Shown: positions 30,149-38,201, counted from the stretch's first letter. The stretch is 64,000 bases of DNA from Bryobacteraceae bacterium (GCA_025055455.1 JANWXD010000004.1:62001-126000), one strand, 5' to 3'. Notes: a model not told the origin generated them from the sequence alone. Made by a program: numbers and translations.

Positions 30149-32059
30149 CTACGGCAGCCGCGTGCGCAGCAGCCGGGACGAATTCGCCAGGATGCCCACG
30201 TCCGGAAGCGACTGGGCCGCAGCGGCCAGTGTGGGTGGAAGGATTCCGAGCGCTGCGAGCGACAACCCCAGCAAATTGTACAGGCCGGTGAAGAGCAGAT
30301 TGCCGCGCACCACGCGCATGGTGCGGCGCGCCGTCGCGAACAGGGTCGGCACGAGCGACCAATCATCGGCCAAAACCGCGGCGTGAGCCGCTTCCACCGC
30401 CACCGGAGAACCTGCGGCGCCCATGGCGATCCCCACGTCGGCTTGCGCCAGCGCCGGAGCGTCGTTGACGCCGTCGCCGATCATCGCCACGGTGTGGCCT
30501 GCCGCCTGATAGTCGCGCACGACCGCGATCTTGTCCTGAGGCAGGAGTCCGGCGCGCACCGGCAGACCGAGCGCACGCGCAACGGGCAGGGCGGCCCGCT
30601 CGTGATCCCCGGTGATCAGCTCGATGCGCTGCAAGCCCATCTCCCGCAGGCGACGGAGCGCGGCCGGGACATCGGGCCGGATCGTGTCGGCGGCGGCGAG
30701 CAATCCCGCGGCCTGCCCGTCGCAGGAGACGAACAGCACGGTCTTGCCCTCCGCCTCCAGGCGCGCCGCCGCATCGATGGGGCAGCCGCAAGCCAACAGG
30801 CGGTTTCCCACCGAGACCAGTCGTTCTCCCACCAGCGCCCGCACTCCCGCGCCCGGGATGGCCTCGAATCGGTCGGGCTCGGGAATCACCAGCCCTCGTT
30901 CGACCGCGGCGCCGCGAACGGCCTCCGCCAGCGGGTGCTCCGAGTAGCGCTCCGCGGCGGCGGCCAGGGACAGCAACTCGGCGGGGCTCGCGCCGTTCAG
31001 CGGCACGACGTCGGTGATTCGCGGGCGCCCGAGCGTCAAAGTGCCGGTCTTGTCGATCAGCACCACGTCCGCGCGCGCCAGCAGCTCGAGGTACTTGCCG
31101 CCTTTGATCAGGAGCCCCCGGCGCGCGGCGGCCCCGATCGAAGCCAGCATCGCCACCGGAGTCGCGAGGGCGAACGAACAGGAGCAGGCCACCACCAGCA
31201 CAGCGACCGTCGCCATCCAGTCGCCGCGAACGAGCAGCGTCAGCGCGGCCACGGCCAGCACCACCGGGAGATAGCGCGCCGAGAAGCGGTCTGCCGCGCG
31301 CTGCACGTCCCCCTTGTGGGTCTCGGCTTGCTGCACCATTTCCAGCACGCGGCCGAAGACCGTGCCGGCCCCGGCCTGCTCGGCCCGCACGCGGAGCATT
31401 CCCGCATGTGCAAAGCTCGCCGCGAACACTCTGGCGCCGGGCCCCGCCTCCACCGGCATGGACTCGCCCGTAATCGCGGCTTGGTCCACCCAAGCGTGGC
31501 CTCCGATCACTTCACCGTCGACAGGGATCGCCTCGCCTGGGCGCACGATCACGACGCTGCCCGGCTCCACGAGTTCGGCCGGAATCTCGATTTCGACGCC
31601 GTCGCGCTCGATACGGGCCCTCCGGGGCGCCAGGGCCGCGAGCTGCTGGAGCGCCCGCCTCGCCTGCTGCGCCGTGAAGCGCTCGATGGCCTCTCCAGCG
31701 CGCATGAACAGGACCACGATCACAGCCGTAGGCCATTCGCCCGCAACGAGCGCCGCCAGTGCGCCGACCGTCATCAGGGTGTGGGAGGTGATCCTTTTGC
31801 GCGCCGCCGCCCGGATCACGCCACGGAACACCGGATAGCCGACTACGGCCGCAAGAACCCAGCCGACCGGCGCCGGCACGCGTCCCCGGAGCAGTTCGAA
31901 CCAACCGAGCCATTCTCCGCCGATGACGACGGCAAGGACCACCGCGAAAGAGATTCCCAGAAGGACCAACGCCGTACGGCCCACGGGCGGAACCTCGGCC
32001 CCAGTCCGGCCGCAGCTACCGCACGGTGCCGGCGCCGGATCCTTTGTCAGGAGACTCAT
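30149..32059 (-). CDS. P1B-type heavy-metal P-type ATPase with CSC in place of CPC
   Basis: A 636-residue metal-exporting ATPase. It has eight predicted membrane helices, an actuator-domain loop ITGESMPV, phosphorylation site DKTGTLT with Asp336, the nucleotide-domain SEHPLA (the HP motif of P1B enzymes) and GDGVNDAPALAQADVGIAMG. The transmembrane metal motif normally written CPC is ACSCSFALATP, with the cysteines at 292 and 294 and Ser replacing Pro at 293. There is no full N-terminal HMA domain, only a CGSCGR near residue 13. The metal could be Cu, Zn or Cd. The 3'-to-5' neighbour is the HTH-TPR gene, whose end overlaps its start by 44 bp. Confidence 0.9.
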   Translation of the reverse strand: MSLLTKDPAPAPCGSCGRTGAEVPPVGRTALVLLGISFAVVLAVVIGGEWLGWFELLRGRVPAPVGWVLAAVVGYPVFRGVIRAAARKRITSHTLMTVGALAALVAGEWPTAVIVVLFMRAGEAIERFTAQQARRALQQLAALAPRRARIERDGVEIEIPAELVEPGSVVIVRPGEAIPVDGEVIGGHAWVDQAAITGESMPVEAGPGARVFAASFAHAGMLRVRAEQAGAGTVFGRVLEMVQQAETHKGDVQRAADRFSARYLPVVLAVAALTLLVRGDWMATVAVLVVACSCSFALATPVAMLASIGAAARRGLLIKGGKYLELLARADVVLIDKTGTLTLGRPRITDVVPLNGASPAELLSLAAAAERYSEHPLAEAVRGAAVERGLVIPEPDRFEAIPGAGVRALVGERLVSVGNRLLACGCPIDAAARLEAEGKTVLFVSCDGQAAGLLAAADTIRPDVPAALRRLREMGLQRIELITGDHERAALPVARALGLPVRAGLLPQDKIAVVRDYQAAGHTVAMIGDGVNDAPALAQADVGIAMGAAGSPVAVEAAHAAVLADDWSLVPTLFATARRTMRVVRGNLLFTGLYNLLGLSLAALGILPPTLAAAAQSLPDVGILANSSRLLRTRLP

Positions 32060-32966
32060 AGCCCTTCACCAGCGCTGCGCGGCGAAGCTTTTCCAGCTCT
32101 TGCCGGGCGACCGCGGCCCAGGGGCTGTCGGAGTCGAGTTTGAGATAGGCCTTCCAGTGGCGAACGGCGCGCAGGATCTGACCGGCGGACTGGTACAGCA
32201 GCGCCAGGTTGTAGTGGGCATCGGCATAGCGCGGATTGAGTTTGACTGCCATCAGATAGTGGGCGAGTGCCTTGGGACGGTCATGAAGTTCGTCGTAGAG
32301 ATTGCCGAGGTTGAAATGAGCCAGGGCGTAAGTGGGATCCACCTCCAGAGCCTGTTTGTAATACGCTTCGGCCTGGCGCCAGGATTTGAGGTGAAAGTAG
32401 ACGGTCCCCAAGTTGACGAGAGCCCCGACGGAAGTGGGATCTAACTCGACGGCGGTGCGGTAGGCCGCGATCACTTCCTGGTACGGTGCTCCGCTTTGCT
32501 CGAGCTCTAAGCCCCGTTCGAACCACCGCTTGGCCTCCTGTCGGCGCCCGGCGCCGCTCGGCCGGTTTGGATCCGGCAGCCGCGCCGGCAGCGCCAAAAC
32601 CTGGCCGGCCGCGCTCCCATCGAAATCGAGCAGTAACTGCCCCGTAAAGGGTTCCAGTTTGCTAGGTCCGACGCGCACGGCGACGGTGCGTCCCTCGACC
32701 AGGATTTTGAGCTCGCCCAACGGATCTCGGACATCGCGGAGCTTTTCTCGCACGGCGGCAAGCACCTGCCGGATGCGAGCGCTTGGCACCCCGTGCTCCC
32801 GGAGCCGGAGCAAGGTCCGGAGCGCGATCAGGTCGCGGAACGAAAACGTGCCCTGGGGGTGTATCAGATTCTGCCGCTCCCAAGCGCGCAACTGACGGCC
32901 GGAGATCCCGAGCAAGCGGCAGACCTGCGGGCGGGAGTAAGCGCCCGCGTCCACTGGGGTAGCCAC
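32016..32966 (-). CDS. MerR-like HTH protein with C-terminal TPR repeats
   Basis: A 316-residue protein. The N-terminal 70 residues form a MerR-type winged helix (YSRPQVCRLLGISGRQLRAW then ERQNLIHPQGTFSFRDLIALRTL). A linker follows, and about four TPR units occupy residues 155-290 (VGALVNLGTVYFHLKSWRQA then EAYYKQALEVDPTYALAHFN). GTG 32966 is the likely start. On the minus strand a TACAAT box (plus 32974-32979) stands 7 nt before it, so the mRNA may be leaderless. An in-frame ATG at 33158 would cross the ECF sigma gene. It is divergent from that sigma operon, which suggests a regulatory link (inference), and its 3' end overlaps the ATPase start by 44 bp. Confidence 0.82.
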   Translation of the reverse strand: MATPVDAGAYSRPQVCRLLGISGRQLRAWERQNLIHPQGTFSFRDLIALRTLLRLREHGVPSARIRQVLAAVREKLRDVRDPLGELKILVEGRTVAVRVGPSKLEPFTGQLLLDFDGSAAGQVLALPARLPDPNRPSGAGRRQEAKRWFERGLELEQSGAPYQEVIAAYRTAVELDPTSVGALVNLGTVYFHLKSWRQAEAYYKQALEVDPTYALAHFNLGNLYDELHDRPKALAHYLMAVKLNPRYADAHYNLALLYQSAGQILRAVRHWKAYLKLDSDSPWAAVARQELEKLRRAALVKGYESPDKGSGAGTVR

Positions 32967-33056
32967 GTGGGCAATTGTAGCACGGGGGCCAGAACCGATC
33001 GCGCAGCTGGCTCGGGCACGATCCTTGCCAGAGTGGTGGTTGCACGCTATACTTAA
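32967..33056. promoter_or_regulatory. Divergent promoter region between the HTH-TPR and ECF sigma genes
   Basis: A 90-bp spacer carries a -10-like box for each direction: TACAAT (minus strand, 32974-32979) for the HTH-TPR gene and TATACT (plus strand, 33048-33053) for the sigma gene. Neither start has a clear Shine-Dalgarno. The plus-strand box lies only 3 nt before the GTG at 33057. Either the sigma factor starts further down (TTG at 33081 after GGCGGA is possible) or the box is not the working promoter. Confidence 0.35.
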
Positions 33057-33635
33057 GTGCCGAATCTTACCGGCGGATTCTTGAAGTTCCACGAGTTCAC
33101 CGCGGACTATGTGAAGCGGCTTGCGGAGGGTGACCCCTTCGTGGCCGAACACTTTCACGCCTATTTCTCCAAGCTGTTTGCCGTGCGGCTCGGGCGCCGC
33201 GGCCGATCGCGGGAATTCATCGAGGATGTGACTCAGGAAACCTTCCGCCGCGTTCTGACGTGGTTACAAAGCGGCAAGCCCGTCGAGTATCCCGAGCGGT
33301 TCGGAGCGTTCGTCCATGCGATCTCCGTCAACGTGGAACGAGAAATGCTGCGCCCGGAAGAGCGCTACCAGCCTATGGACGACGCCGACTTCACCGACCA
33401 CCGCGCGGATCCCGCCTCGGCCTTGGTCACCGACGAGCGCAAGCGGGCCGTGCGCGCCATCCTTGCGGAGCTCTCCGAACGAGACCGGCGGGTGCTGGAG
33501 CTGCGCTACCTCGAGGAGTGGCCTCTCGAGAAAATTTGCCAGCAACTCGGCGTGGATGCGGTCTACGTCCGCGTGGTGCTCCATCGCGCCCGCTTGCGCT
33601 TCCGCGAAAAAATGGGGGACGCAGTTCCGGTGTGA
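33057..33635 (+). CDS. ECF-type RNA polymerase sigma factor
   Basis: A 192-residue sigma-70-like factor of the extracytoplasmic function class. Region 2 is EFIEDVTQETFRRVLTWLQS (core and -10 binding). Region 4 is SERDRRVLELRYLEEWPLEK then ICQQLGVDAVYVRVVLHRAR, the helix-turn-helix reading the -35. It would be held inactive by the zinc-finger protein encoded 68 bp downstream. GTG 33057 is the outermost start; conservation begins near FHEFTADYVKRL, so a later start (TTG 33081) is possible. It heads the five-gene plus-strand cluster that ends at 38201. Confidence 0.9.
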   Translation: MPNLTGGFLKFHEFTADYVKRLAEGDPFVAEHFHAYFSKLFAVRLGRRGRSREFIEDVTQETFRRVLTWLQSGKPVEYPERFGAFVHAISVNVEREMLRPEERYQPMDDADFTDHRADPASALVTDERKRAVRAILAELSERDRRVLELRYLEEWPLEKICQQLGVDAVYVRVVLHRARLRFREKMGDAVPV

Positions 33636-33703
33636 GCGAGCAGAGGGCATTTGAAACCTTAGGAACGCCCGATTCAGGATATCTTAAGGAGGGCTAAGCC
33701 TCC

Positions 33704-34381
33704 ATGGACCACGCGGAAGCGGAGCGAACAGGCGCCGTGGATAGATACCTGCTCGGCGAGCTTACCGAGCCGGAGCGGGAAGCCTTCGAGGAGCATTATT
33801 TCGCCTGCCCGCAATGCGCCCGGGACGTCCTGGCGGGAGAGGCACTCCGGGCCAACGTCCGGGCGGTGCTGCTCGAGGACCGGCGCCCAGATCCGGTCGC
33901 GCTCCGCTCGCGGCCCTGGTTTCACCGGTTGCGAATACCCTCGCCACAGCTAGCTTGGGCCGCCGCCGGAGTCTTTGCGCTGGTTGCCAGCTATGACCGC
34001 CTCGTGCTGGTTCCCAGACTCGAGTCCCAACTGCGCGAGCTGAGCGCGCCCCAGACGGTCTCGCGCCACGTGTTGCTGCCTCTGGCTCGGGCGGGTGACG
34101 TGCCCCGGCTGACCGCGGCAACCAAAGGCTTCGTGACCCTCGCTCTGCCTTTGGATTTTCTACCGGAGGCCCAGGAGCTCGTCGTCGAAGTGCGAGACAG
34201 CGGGGGACGGACGGCGGCGGTCATCGAAGCTCGTGTTCCCCAGCGTCCGGGCGAGCCCTTGGAGGTGCTGGTTCCCCTGGCGAGCTTGAGGCCGGACTCC
34301 TATACGCTTGCCCTGACCGGAGGCCGAGGCCAGCAACGCGCCGAGCTCGGCACGTACCGTTTCGTCGTCGTCAAACCGTAA
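33704..34381 (+). CDS. Zinc-finger membrane anti-sigma factor
   Basis: A 225-residue protein with an N-terminal zf-HC2 anti-sigma domain, VDRYLLGELTEPEREAFEEH then YFACPQC (HxxxCxxC). One transmembrane helix follows near residues 84-101 (LAWAAAGVFALVASYDRLVL). The outer part of about 120 residues is beta-rich and of unrecognised fold. The family binds the sigma factor through the zinc finger and releases it on a signal sensed outside. Start ATG 33704 has GGAGGG about 10 bp upstream. Its partner is the ECF sigma factor encoded just before it. Confidence 0.85.
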   Translation: MDHAEAERTGAVDRYLLGELTEPEREAFEEHYFACPQCARDVLAGEALRANVRAVLLEDRRPDPVALRSRPWFHRLRIPSPQLAWAAAGVFALVASYDRLVLVPRLESQLRELSAPQTVSRHVLLPLARAGDVPRLTAATKGFVTLALPLDFLPEAQELVVEVRDSGGRTAAVIEARVPQRPGEPLEVLVPLASLRPDSYTLALTGGRGQQRAELGTYRFVVVKP

Positions 34382-34391
34382 GGACCCTGGT

Positions 34392-35198
34392 ATGCGGAGA
34401 ACCTTCGAGTTTCACGCGCAAGCGGTGGCCGTGGCGGCTCAGGTCAGTGGTCCCAACTCCATCGAGGGAGTTTGGGCCTCGGTTTCCCTGCCGATCATCG
34501 GAGGAAAAGACACCCGGTCCGTGGGCCGATTTCGGCACGAGCCGGTTCTCTCGTTCGAGTCTGCGACCGCCACCGTCGAGGGTCGCACCAACGGTTCCGT
34601 GCACAGCACGCGCGCGGAAATCCGAGTGACCGGGCTCAACGTGTTGGACAAAGTTCGCGGGGACGTGCACCTTATCATGACCACGAACTATGACGCGGCG
34701 GCCAGGCAATACCAGGTGGAGTTCGGTCCAGAGCGCCCCTTGGCCAGGCTCACCGTACCCGGCGTGAACACGGCCTTGGTGACGTACAACGGCCGGCGAT
34801 ATCCTTCCTTGGCAGCGCCTTCCTCCGGTCCGGCGGCACCCGTCCCTGTCGCCTCCCAGGCCGGCGTGATGCGGTGCCCGGTGGACTTCCACCCGATCAT
34901 GGATCACATCCGCACCAGCGCCCCAACCAAGCACCGCCTCCACCCCCATAACGCCGTTCTGACCTCGCTCGTGGATCCCGAAACCGCATTTCAGTGGGAT
35001 ACCGCCCAGAATCGCTTCGGATTCGTTTCCGTTCCCGGCTTGGGGCGGGTCTACTTCCTGGAGTGGGCCATCGAGCCCTACCGGCAGTCGTTGACCGCCT
35101 TGCGCATCGTGCTCGACGATCCCGAACACCGCTACAAGGGCGAAATCGTCATCGCCGACCCGGAAGAGAACGGCAGACCCGAGGGGCGCGGGTGGTGA
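34392..35198 (+). CDS. Uncharacterised protein of the ECF sigma-CHAT cluster
   Basis: A 268-residue protein that I do not recognise. The first half is rich in short beta strands (FEFHAQAVAVAAQVSGPNSI; ASVSLPIIGG). The second half has a histidine-rich stretch VDFHPIMDHIRTS...KHRLHPHNAVL and ends in KGEIVIADPEENG. There is no signal peptide or membrane helix, so it should be cytoplasmic. It lies 10 bp after the anti-sigma gene and 67 bp before the CHAT gene on the same strand, suggesting a shared function in this signalling unit. Start ATG 34392 follows AAGGA. Confidence 0.75.
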   Translation: MRRTFEFHAQAVAVAAQVSGPNSIEGVWASVSLPIIGGKDTRSVGRFRHEPVLSFESATATVEGRTNGSVHSTRAEIRVTGLNVLDKVRGDVHLIMTTNYDAAARQYQVEFGPERPLARLTVPGVNTALVTYNGRRYPSLAAPSSGPAAPVPVASQAGVMRCPVDFHPIMDHIRTSAPTKHRLHPHNAVLTSLVDPETAFQWDTAQNRFGFVSVPGLGRVYFLEWAIEPYRQSLTALRIVLDDPEHRYKGEIVIADPEENGRPEGRGW

Positions 35199-35265
35199 TC
35201 CCCTTTCCAAAGTCAGTCGGAGACACCCCGCCGGCTTCCGGCGGTCGCCTGAATATGATGGGAGC

Positions 35266-37782
35266 ATGGCTCGCTGGGCGGTGTTGTGGTTGCTCGCCGT
35301 TTCCCTTAGCTGCGCGCATAAACCGCCGGGCGAGCTCCAGAGAGAGGCGCTGACCCTCCTGCGGCAGGGCAAACGGTCGGACGCCTGGCGACTCGCGGAG
35401 CAGGGGCTCCGGGAGGCTGGCGCAGCGGAGGATCGTTGGCGGCTCGTGCTCATCCAAGCGGAAGTCCTATACCGAACCGGCCGGTCGGCCGAAGCATTGA
35501 AGCGCTTGGAGCAAGACGCGCCGCCCGAAGATCCCGAGACGGCGGTCCGGCGGCTGACGCTGCTGAGTCGCGTTCTCGGCGACCTCGGACGGCGGGCCGA
35601 GTCCGAGCGCGCCCTCGAGGAGGCCTTGCGTTTGGCAGAGGACTCCGGCGAGCCGCTGTTGATTTCCCTGGCGGAGCAGCTTCACGGCATCGTGCTGCAA
35701 CGCAGGGACGCCACTGGCGCCTATCGATGCCTTCGACGCGCCCTCGATGCGGCGCAACGAGCCGCCGAGCGGCATCAAGAGGCCGCCACGCTGGTGACGC
35801 TGGGATGGAGCCGGATGAGTGCTGGCCGGCACGACGAAGCGATTCCGTGGCTCGAGCAGGCGCTCGCCATCGCCGTCCCCGCCGGCTACGAGCCGCTCGT
35901 AGCGACGGCAACGCACAACCTCGGGGTCTGCTACAACGCACTGGGCGACTGGGAGCGGGCGCGGGAGAAGCTTCAGCAGGCGGAAAAGATCTACATCGCG
36001 ACGGGCGACGAGCGCTCCCGTGCGGGCCTGCTGGGAGACCTCGGGAACACGTATTACTTTCTGCGCGAGCCGCAACATGCCACGGCCTGTTACCGGCGAG
36101 GTCTGGAGCTGGCGCGCCGTCTCGGCGACGAGGCCATGGCCGCCCGCTGGCTGACCAACCTCGCGATGATGGCGATCGAGGCGGGCGATCCGGACGCGGC
36201 GGAGAAATTCAACCAGGAAGCCGTGGAGCTGCGGGCGCGTGCCGGCGAGGCGGACCGCCTGGTGTGGCCGCTGCTGAACGAAGCTCGGATCCTCACGCTC
36301 CGCGGCCGCTATTCGGAGGCGGAGGCCCGCTACCGGGAAGCGATTGCCCGCGCCGAGAAACTGGACCTGCCGCAGGCGCTGCTCGAAGGCCGGGCGCGCT
36401 TGGGCCGTCTGTACGCTCAAGCCGGCGCCTATCGCCTGCTGGCCAAAGAATTCGACCGACTGGCGGCGGACACGGCGCGGCTCCGCGGCCGTCTGTCGCG
36501 CCTCGAGTGGAAGTTCACGTTCCACGCCAGCATCGTTCCCTTCTACCAGGATTACGTGGACGTGTTGGTGCGCCGCGGCGAGATCGCACGCGCTTGGGAG
36601 GTGGTGGAGTCCTGCCGCGCCCGTGTGCTCGCCGAGCGGGCCGCCAGCCGGCACCGCTCCGCGGCGCAATCCCGCCGCGCCGAAGGCGCGCGCCGAGTCC
36701 AACACGGCGGCGCAACCGTGGTGCTCTCCTACTGGCTTGCCCCGGTGCGCTCGTTCTTGTTCGTGCGGGCCAAGGGCAGCCTTGCCTGGTTCGCCTTGCC
36801 TCCCGAGGCGGAAATCCGCCGGCTCGTCGAGGCCTATGCCACCGCGCTGATGGCCGTCGAAGATCCTCGGGACCAGCGCAGCCCGCTCGGGCGGAAGCTC
36901 TATGACGTGCTGGTCGCACCGGCGCGGGAATGGATCCCGCGCGGGGCAAACGTTCTGATCGTGCCGGACGGGGCCCTCCACGAGTTGAATTTCGAGACGC
37001 TGCTGACGCCCGACCATCCGCCACGGTATTGGCTGGAGGAGGTGACCCTGGCCGTGGCGCCAGCGACCTCCGTTCTGTCGCCCGCTCCGGCGCGCACAGG
37101 CCGTGGCTTATTGGTGCTGGGAGATCCCGTGCCGCCGGCGGCGCAGTTCCCCCGCTTGCCCGATGCCGCGAGGGAAATCGCCGGCATCGCACGGGAGTTT
37201 CCCGTCGGCCCGAAGAAAATTCTTACGGGGTACGAGGCTTACCCCGAAGCCTACCGACTCAACGCTCCCGAGCAGTATGCCCTCATCCATTTCGCGGCTC
37301 ACGCCGAGGCCAACCGCGAAAGTCCTCTGGACTCCGCGGTGATTCTTTCGCGCCGGGGCGACGGCTACAAGCTTTACGCCCGGGACATGCTCGAGCAGCC
37401 CCTCCAAGCGAACCTGGTGACCATTTCGGCGTGTCGCAGTGCCGGCACGCGCACTTATTCGGGCGAGGGCTTGGTCGGATTTGCATGGGTCTTTCTGGCG
37501 GCGGGAGCGCGCAACGTAGTGGCCGGACTATGGAACGTCAATGACCGTTCCACTGCCCAGCTGATTTCGGAATTGTACCGGCGCCTCGGCGCAGGAGATT
37601 CTCCCGCCGGCGCACTCCGCGCCGCCAAGCTGGCCCTGCTGGCGCACCCCGTTTACAAGCGGCCGTACTATTGGGCGCCCTTCCAGATCTTCACCCGCGG
37701 CGGGGCATTCGCGCCCGGTGCGGCGCACGACGATTCGCCGTCCCCCTCGCCTGCTAGAATACGCAAGTTGTCGTCGCGGTGA
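35266..37782 (+). CDS. TPR-CHAT protease-like lipoprotein
   Basis: An 838-residue protein. The lipoprotein signal WAVLWLLAVSLSCAHKP (lipobox Cys about residue 17) predicts a periplasmic membrane-attached protein. Residues about 25-400 form a long run of TPR/Sel1-like helices (for example GDWERAREKLQQAEKIYIAT). The C-terminal CHAT domain (about 470-820) is a caspase-like fold. Its dyad appears intact, with His679 in HFAAHAE and Cys723 in TISACRSA, followed by GEGLVGFAWVFLAAGARNVV. CHAT proteins are cysteine peptidases that cut partner proteins when triggered. Here the gene sits in an ECF sigma/anti-sigma operon. Its stop overlaps the next gene as GTGA. Confidence 0.88.
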   Translation: MARWAVLWLLAVSLSCAHKPPGELQREALTLLRQGKRSDAWRLAEQGLREAGAAEDRWRLVLIQAEVLYRTGRSAEALKRLEQDAPPEDPETAVRRLTLLSRVLGDLGRRAESERALEEALRLAEDSGEPLLISLAEQLHGIVLQRRDATGAYRCLRRALDAAQRAAERHQEAATLVTLGWSRMSAGRHDEAIPWLEQALAIAVPAGYEPLVATATHNLGVCYNALGDWERAREKLQQAEKIYIATGDERSRAGLLGDLGNTYYFLREPQHATACYRRGLELARRLGDEAMAARWLTNLAMMAIEAGDPDAAEKFNQEAVELRARAGEADRLVWPLLNEARILTLRGRYSEAEARYREAIARAEKLDLPQALLEGRARLGRLYAQAGAYRLLAKEFDRLAADTARLRGRLSRLEWKFTFHASIVPFYQDYVDVLVRRGEIARAWEVVESCRARVLAERAASRHRSAAQSRRAEGARRVQHGGATVVLSYWLAPVRSFLFVRAKGSLAWFALPPEAEIRRLVEAYATALMAVEDPRDQRSPLGRKLYDVLVAPAREWIPRGANVLIVPDGALHELNFETLLTPDHPPRYWLEEVTLAVAPATSVLSPAPARTGRGLLVLGDPVPPAAQFPRLPDAAREIAGIAREFPVGPKKILTGYEAYPEAYRLNAPEQYALIHFAAHAEANRESPLDSAVILSRRGDGYKLYARDMLEQPLQANLVTISACRSAGTRTYSGEGLVGFAWVFLAAGARNVVAGLWNVNDRSTAQLISELYRRLGAGDSPAGALRAAKLALLAHPVYKRPYYWAPFQIFTRGGAFAPGAAHDDSPSPSPARIRKLSSR

Positions 37783-38201
37783 CCGCCGGGAGGTTCCCCG
37801 AATTGCTGAATGCGCTGCTTCGCTGGTTCGCCCTGTTTTTTCATGCCGGGTTCGCGGTGGCTCTTCTGGTGCTGGCGGTAGTGTCCGCCTTCAGCCCGCC
37901 CCACGAACTTTGGTTTCCTGTCTTGCCTTGGAGCGGGACATGGCTAATCGGGAGCTTGGTGGGGCTCGGGGTCGCGGGCTTGCTGATCGTGGCGGCGGCG
38001 GCGCGAGGCAGAGCGCGGGGGCTGTGGTTGGCCTGGAGCCTGGCGGTCTTCGTGCTGATTGCGCGCGGCTACTTTTTCTCCGACTACCGTTTCGTCCCCG
38101 ATTCCAGCCAGTTCACCACAGCGTTGCTGGTGCTGCTGGCCTCCCTGATGGCGATCTTAGGCGCCAAGCGGAGCCTGCGGCCCGGCCCCCGCAAAACCTG
38201 A
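37779..38201 (+). CDS. Small integral membrane protein
   Basis: A 140-residue protein with four hydrophobic segments, including FFHAGFAVALLVLAVVSAF, LIGSLVGLGVAGLLIVAAAA, LWLAWSLAVFVLIARGYFF and ALLVLLASLMAILGA. I do not recognise a named family. The GTG at 37779 overlaps the CHAT stop (GTGA), which implies translational coupling; a TTG at 37803 is an alternative start. It is the last gene of the sigma-CHAT cluster and converges on clpP with a 10 bp gap. Confidence 0.65.
   Translation: MTAGRFPELLNALLRWFALFFHAGFAVALLVLAVVSAFSPPHELWFPVLPWSGTWLIGSLVGLGVAGLLIVAAAARGRARGLWLAWSLAVFVLIARGYFFSDYRFVPDSSQFTTALLVLLASLMAILGAKRSLRPGPRKT

Follow-up and report, generated by a model that had tools for sequence, protein, structure and literature searches.

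The window, the whole 64,000-nucleotide stretch analyzed here (Bryobacteraceae bacterium, GCA_025055455.1, JANWXD010000004.1:62001-126000), belongs to a 3.95-Mb draft genome that is 98.75% complete and whose nearest named relatives are Acidobacteriota, chiefly Bryobacterales and Acidobacteriaceae. A preliminary description had reported five plus-strand genes with short or overlapping junctions at 33057-38201. All five open reading frames (ORFs) were found, with intergenic gaps of 68, 10, 67 and -4 bp. Their predicted products are, in order, an ECF-type sigma factor, an anti-sigma factor, a beta-rich protein (ORF3), a TPR-CHAT protein and a small membrane protein (Table 1).

Table 1. Genes and promoter elements of the locus, in window coordinates
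Feature	Position	Strand	Evidence
Sigma70-like promoter of the sigma gene, TTGCCA-N17-TATACT	33025-33053	+	Sequence; recurrence in relatives
ECF-type sigma factor	33081-33635 (ORF opens at GTG 33057)	+	TIGR02937, PF08281, PF04545
Degenerate motif TGAAACC-N16-CAGGA, weak	33652-33679	+	Position of relatives' TGAAACG-N16-CACT, ahead of the anti-sigma gene
Anti-sigma factor	33704-34381	+	PF13490 zf-HC2, alignment A2, AlphaFold model, Foldseek
ORF3, beta-rich, signal-peptide-free	34392-35198	+	NF040603, alignment A1, model
Exported TPR-CHAT protein	35266-37782	+	PF12770, catalytic dyad, family N-termini
Small membrane protein, gene 5	37779-38201	+	ORF call

The first product matches the sigma factor profiles TIGR02937 (66.6 bits for a cut-off of 42.9), PF08281 (43.2 for 25.7) and PF04545 (above cut-off); its match to the region 2 model is weak (14.3 for a cut-off of 24). 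A promoter of the form TTGC-N17/18-TATACT recurs just 5' of the sigma gene in about 15 related loci. Translation probably starts at the TTG at 33081 rather than at the upstream GTG, because the promoter predicts an RNA start around 33060 and the homologues begin at 33081. The adjoining gene would encode a one-pass membrane protein, the putative inhibitor of this sigma factor. It carries a zf-HC2 domain (PF13490, 29.5 bits for a cut-off of 22.2) with the residues H31-x3-C35-x2-C38, and H31, C35 and C38 are invariant in alignment A2. The large outer domain attributed to the anti-sigma factor in the preliminary description is borne out by the AlphaFold model (pLDDT 90): a single transmembrane helix within residues 81-114 is followed by a C-terminal beta-sandwich (residues 121-223), which Foldseek matched to Ig-like beta-sandwiches.

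ORF3 gave no sequence match and no Pfam family in sequence and Pfam searches. Its N-terminal half is related to the choice-of-anchor P family, at a borderline score for the window's copy (NF040603, 27.3 bits for a cut-off of 27), and the same profile matches 16 of the 36 members of alignment A1 (15 of the 35 aligned homologues) at E ≤ 0.01. Proteins of the choice-of-anchor P family are expected to carry a signal peptide and a C-terminal anchor. Unlike them, ORF3 has no anchor, and a signal peptide is absent from it and from every homologue examined. It ends in a short conserved tail (...NG... in alignment A1). The structural model is confident and made of beta structure (pLDDT 80, pTM 0.79), and its fold has no PDB match at E ≤ 0.001. 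Unless it is exported by an unusual route, ORF3 would lie across the membrane from the CHAT protein and from the outer domain of the anti-sigma factor.

In the TPR-CHAT protein, TPRs at about residues 110-365 form an array that occupies much of the sequence, and the CHAT domain spans residues 540-808 (PF12770, E 2e-55). His679 and Cys723, previously noted as intact, correspond exactly to the CHAT dyad; all 68 homologues keep the dyad and the CHAT motifs around it unchanged. The protein had also been predicted to be lipid-anchored outside the cytoplasm. The export part of this claim stands as a prediction, since a lipobox-like N-terminus is found in 87 of 99 members of the family under a relaxed rule (58 of 100 under a strict one), and homologues that fail the rule still keep a hydrophobic N-terminus. 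The lipid anchor is less secure for the window's own protein, whose hydrophobic N-terminal segment ends in ...AVSLSC, a non-canonical lipobox (VSLSC, with Ser at -3), so that the lipoprotein call relies on the N-termini of the family. Taken together, the lipobox-like N-termini and the invariant dyad make an exported, active enzyme likely, and on the predicted topology it would share one compartment with the outer domain of the anti-sigma factor.

To assess conservation, we examined 103 related acidobacterial loci chosen by CHAT or ORF3 alone. The genes for sigma, anti-sigma, ORF3 and CHAT follow one another in that order on one strand in 84 of them; another 12 contain anti-sigma, ORF3 and CHAT without a detected sigma, and two contain sigma, anti-sigma and CHAT without ORF3. 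Among 150 genomes of the family, 64 encode relatives of CHAT (E ≤ 1e-60), and among 250 of the class, 54 encode relatives of ORF3; the unit, or parts of it, is also present in other classes of the phylum. The genes flanking the unit are unrelated from genome to genome, and its conservation is therefore not a matter of simple local synteny. Judged by gene order, the true unit is made of four genes. Of the five genes whose conserved co-occurrence had been suggested as a check, the first four are complete and collinear in most relatives, and gene 5 is not a conserved neighbor.

The small membrane protein was rejected as a member of the unit, its adjacency not being conserved; homologues lie upstream of the unit in two loci (L115 and L126), not after CHAT. 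On the minus strand, at 32016-33158, a long ORF that overlaps the start of the sigma gene encodes a MerR-type HTH fused to TPR repeats. This divergent gene, put forward earlier as a possible repressor of the cluster, was likewise discarded, as it is not a conserved neighbor; a weak homologue was seen upstream of the unit in one locus only (L091). The neighbors scanned in the window encode a P-type ATPase, the MerR-TPR protein, ClpP and Rrf2. Among the relatives, ten loci (L100, L121, L125, L129, L130, L135, L141, L146, L218 and L053) have anti-sigma, ORF3 and CHAT with no adjacent sigma at E ≤ 1e-12; the sigma factor may have been lost, have diverged or lie elsewhere. In two rearranged units (L189 and L190) the anti-sigma gene follows CHAT, and no sigma was detected in the vicinity.

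A DNA signal is linked to this switch. The core of an ECF-type promoter motif, TGAAACG-N16-CACTA, was counted over 1.5 Mb of these loci: GAAACG-N16-CACTA has 87 matches at spacing 16, and each other spacing has 0 to 2. Of 101 loci, 36 have a shortened form (TGAAACG-N16-CACT) about 45 bp 5' of the anti-sigma gene; none has it on the opposite strand, and it never occurs inside the CHAT coding sequence. In a set of 250 genomes, 44 of the 54 that bear the unit contain the full motif, versus 27 of the 196 that lack the unit (P ~ 8e-21, a value inflated by shared ancestry). In relatives, the motif heads the anti-sigma-ORF3-CHAT part of the unit as well as scattered other genes. Nearly all of the approximately 40 sites inspected there are intergenic, and the genes 3' of them encode PilZ-domain proteins, an amidohydrolase, a papain-like protease, an apiosidase-like protein and a conserved 69-residue protein. 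The last of these (about 69 residues, YDILIxDADGxHLxLE...) lies about 20 to 40 bp behind the motif in seven loci (L260, L272, L277, L279, L286, L295 and L296), and the one copy tested has no Pfam match. The simplest reading of the association is that the sigma factor of the unit would use this motif. No exact TGAAACG-N16-CACTA site exists in the window's own genome, whose sigma factor may therefore prefer an altered sequence; a weak, degenerate version is found at the sigma/anti-sigma junction (Table 1). We take the four-gene unit to be real, and likewise the DNA signal associated with the switch.

Distant relatives of the anti-sigma factor led to a second architecture, type B, as distinct from the type A loci described above. 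In type B the gene order is CHAT, sigma, anti-sigma. Among the best 30 type-B anti-sigma loci, 20 adjoin CHAT and sigma genes and 10 stand alone, and no ORF3 was seen beside a type-B CHAT-sigma-antisigma set. A split form, in which CHAT and sigma are neighbors and the anti-sigma gene lies by itself elsewhere, exists in the window's own genome and in five others, all of one genus. The window's genome has, on the minus strand of contig C51 (L219:7974-11109), a CHAT-sigma pair with no anti-sigma gene beside it; a type-B anti-sigma gene stands alone on a different contig (C52:82954-83589). These two loci probably form one split system. More generally, we infer that separated CHAT-sigma pairs and lone anti-sigma factors cooperate. 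In a CHAT tree, whose root is not fixed, types A and B are separate supported groups with other CHAT proteins between them. That an ECF sigma/anti-sigma pair is tied to a second exported CHAT lineage, in reversed gene order, argues for a functional link.

If the CHAT protein acts on the anti-sigma factor, the best candidate cut site is R129, in the juxtamembrane stalk. This residue is near-invariant (45 of 46, one alignment shift counted), a level of conservation on par with that of structural Ig residues. Anti-sigma factors that do not adjoin CHAT (10 of 30, the stand-alone type-B copies) have it as well; these do not make a clean control, as each tested genome that has one encodes a CHAT protein elsewhere. 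By raw alignment column R129 is missing from 11 type-A loci. Shifts in the alignment account for L106 and probably for L186, and locus L215 stops short of CHAT; replacement is seen in about nine type-A loci, nearly all of which have CHAT. Being kept without an adjacent CHAT and replaced where one is present, R129 may be structural, and we dropped it as proof of CHAT cleavage. In one genome (G027, L220 5082-6742), sigma and anti-sigma are retained, ORF3 and CHAT are both gone, and a short CHAT-like remnant directly follows the anti-sigma gene; in this single case the stalk Arg has become Q.

The unit was not found in the open literature searched, where a CHAT domain together with an ECF sigma and an anti-sigma factor is described in Craspase work only, and nothing of the kind with Acidobacteria. 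In the type III-E CASP/Craspase system, a TPR-CHAT protease is likewise encoded with an ECF-type sigma factor and its inhibitor: Csx29 cleaves Csx30, the inhibitor of the ECF-like CASP-sigma, and this action is thought to free the sigma factor (PMC10028731), which in the present unit is a proposal. Unlike Craspase, the unit has no Cas7-11/gRAMP gene among the neighbors scanned, its CHAT protein is predicted to be exported whereas Csx29 is cytosolic, and its inhibitor is a zinc-finger transmembrane anti-sigma factor, not Csx30. The CHAT protein also scores far below the cut-off of the Csx29 family profile (NF041237, 16.8 bits for a cut-off of 300). The RseA/DegS/RseP system resembles the unit in having a membrane anti-sigma factor with an outer domain, an ECF sigma factor and M50 site-2 proteases in the genome; its first protease is a PDZ serine protease, whereas here an exported CHAT cysteine-peptidase homologue is linked to the unit and the cut is only proposed. 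CalpL/CalpT/CalpS, of type III CRISPR, is another three-part switch of protease, anti-sigma and ECF sigma, in which CalpL is a SAVED-Lon protease triggered by a nucleotide (PMC11417357); in contrast, the domain scan found a SAVED or Lon domain in none of the five genes. A device made of a protease, an anti-sigma factor and an ECF sigma factor is thus already known (RseA/DegS, Craspase, Calp), and the new element is that the protease linked to the pair would be an exported CHAT protein. The promoter motif and the second exported-CHAT lineage are newly found here.

The reading that we favor, tentatively and as one that falls a little short of probable, is a conserved, envelope-facing ECF switch in which CHAT cuts the outer stalk of the anti-sigma factor. 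The vegetative promoter would give a basal supply of sigma factor, held at the membrane by the anti-sigma factor. Outside the cytoplasm, the TPR part of CHAT would sense a partner or signal and unlock the active site, and CHAT would then make a site-1-type cut in the stalk. A site-2 protease and cytosolic proteases would clear the rest of the anti-sigma factor, and the freed sigma factor would activate TGAAACG promoters, yielding more anti-sigma, ORF3 and CHAT as a feedback. ORF3 would probably be a cytoplasmic modulator. The preliminary description had presented such a route as different from the site-1/site-2 scheme. In our reading CHAT would stand in for the site-1 protease and leave the rest of the scheme in place; the genome encodes M50 site-2 proteases. 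The cutting step is a guess with circumstantial support, namely the shared compartment, the tight linkage in two arrangements, the intact dyad, the Craspase precedent and, in G027, the joint loss of ORF3, CHAT and the stalk Arg. The behavior of R129 speaks against it: anti-sigma factors away from CHAT retain the residue, and about nine type-A loci, nearly all with CHAT, do not. Against the wider scheme stand the absence of an exact motif from the window's own genome and the roughly ten loci without a detectable adjacent sigma.

Since the motif precedes CHAT in relatives, CHAT could itself be an output of the switch and not its trigger. Another protease, or a ligand of the Ig domain, would then free the sigma factor, and the induced CHAT would process envelope or surface proteins, with ORF3 as a further output. 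We hold this arrangement to be only slightly less likely than the cutting model. The motif between sigma and anti-sigma indeed places ORF3 and CHAT behind it, G027 retains the sigma pair without either, and secreted or surface-related proteins are among the other motif-headed genes; yet the linkage to the anti-sigma gene, in two CHAT lineages of opposite gene order, is tighter than an effector needs. It is unlikely that CHAT has ORF3 as its substrate or cargo, in which case ORF3 would enter the envelope with no classical signal peptide and have its NG tail trimmed. ORF3 adjoins CHAT and disappeared with it from G027, its short tail is conserved, and it is kin to an extracytoplasmic protein family, but no homologue has a signal peptide, which would put it on the opposite side of the membrane, and none was seen beside type-B sets. 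The large TPR array could also suggest a scaffold that binds the outer domain of the anti-sigma factor and gates access for other proteases, with no cutting by CHAT itself; the invariance of the catalytic His and Cys and of the CHAT motifs argues for catalysis and leaves this role very improbable.

Bacterial CHAT proteins are common and mostly without known substrates, and the best-worked examples come from CRISPR and gasdermin systems. Across a major soil phylum, the present analysis ties two CHAT lineages to ECF sigma switches, for which it offers a predicted promoter and candidate target genes. The exported caspase-like CHAT may be the dedicated site-1 protease of an ECF pathway, an arrangement present in two CHAT lineages within Acidobacteriota, and would then parallel the Craspase switch outside the cytoplasm and without CRISPR; we regard this as quite possible, though on balance doubtful. 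If CHAT does cut the anti-sigma factor, it would represent a new class of protease in transmembrane sigma signaling, and would hint at a possible origin of the Craspase sigma module.
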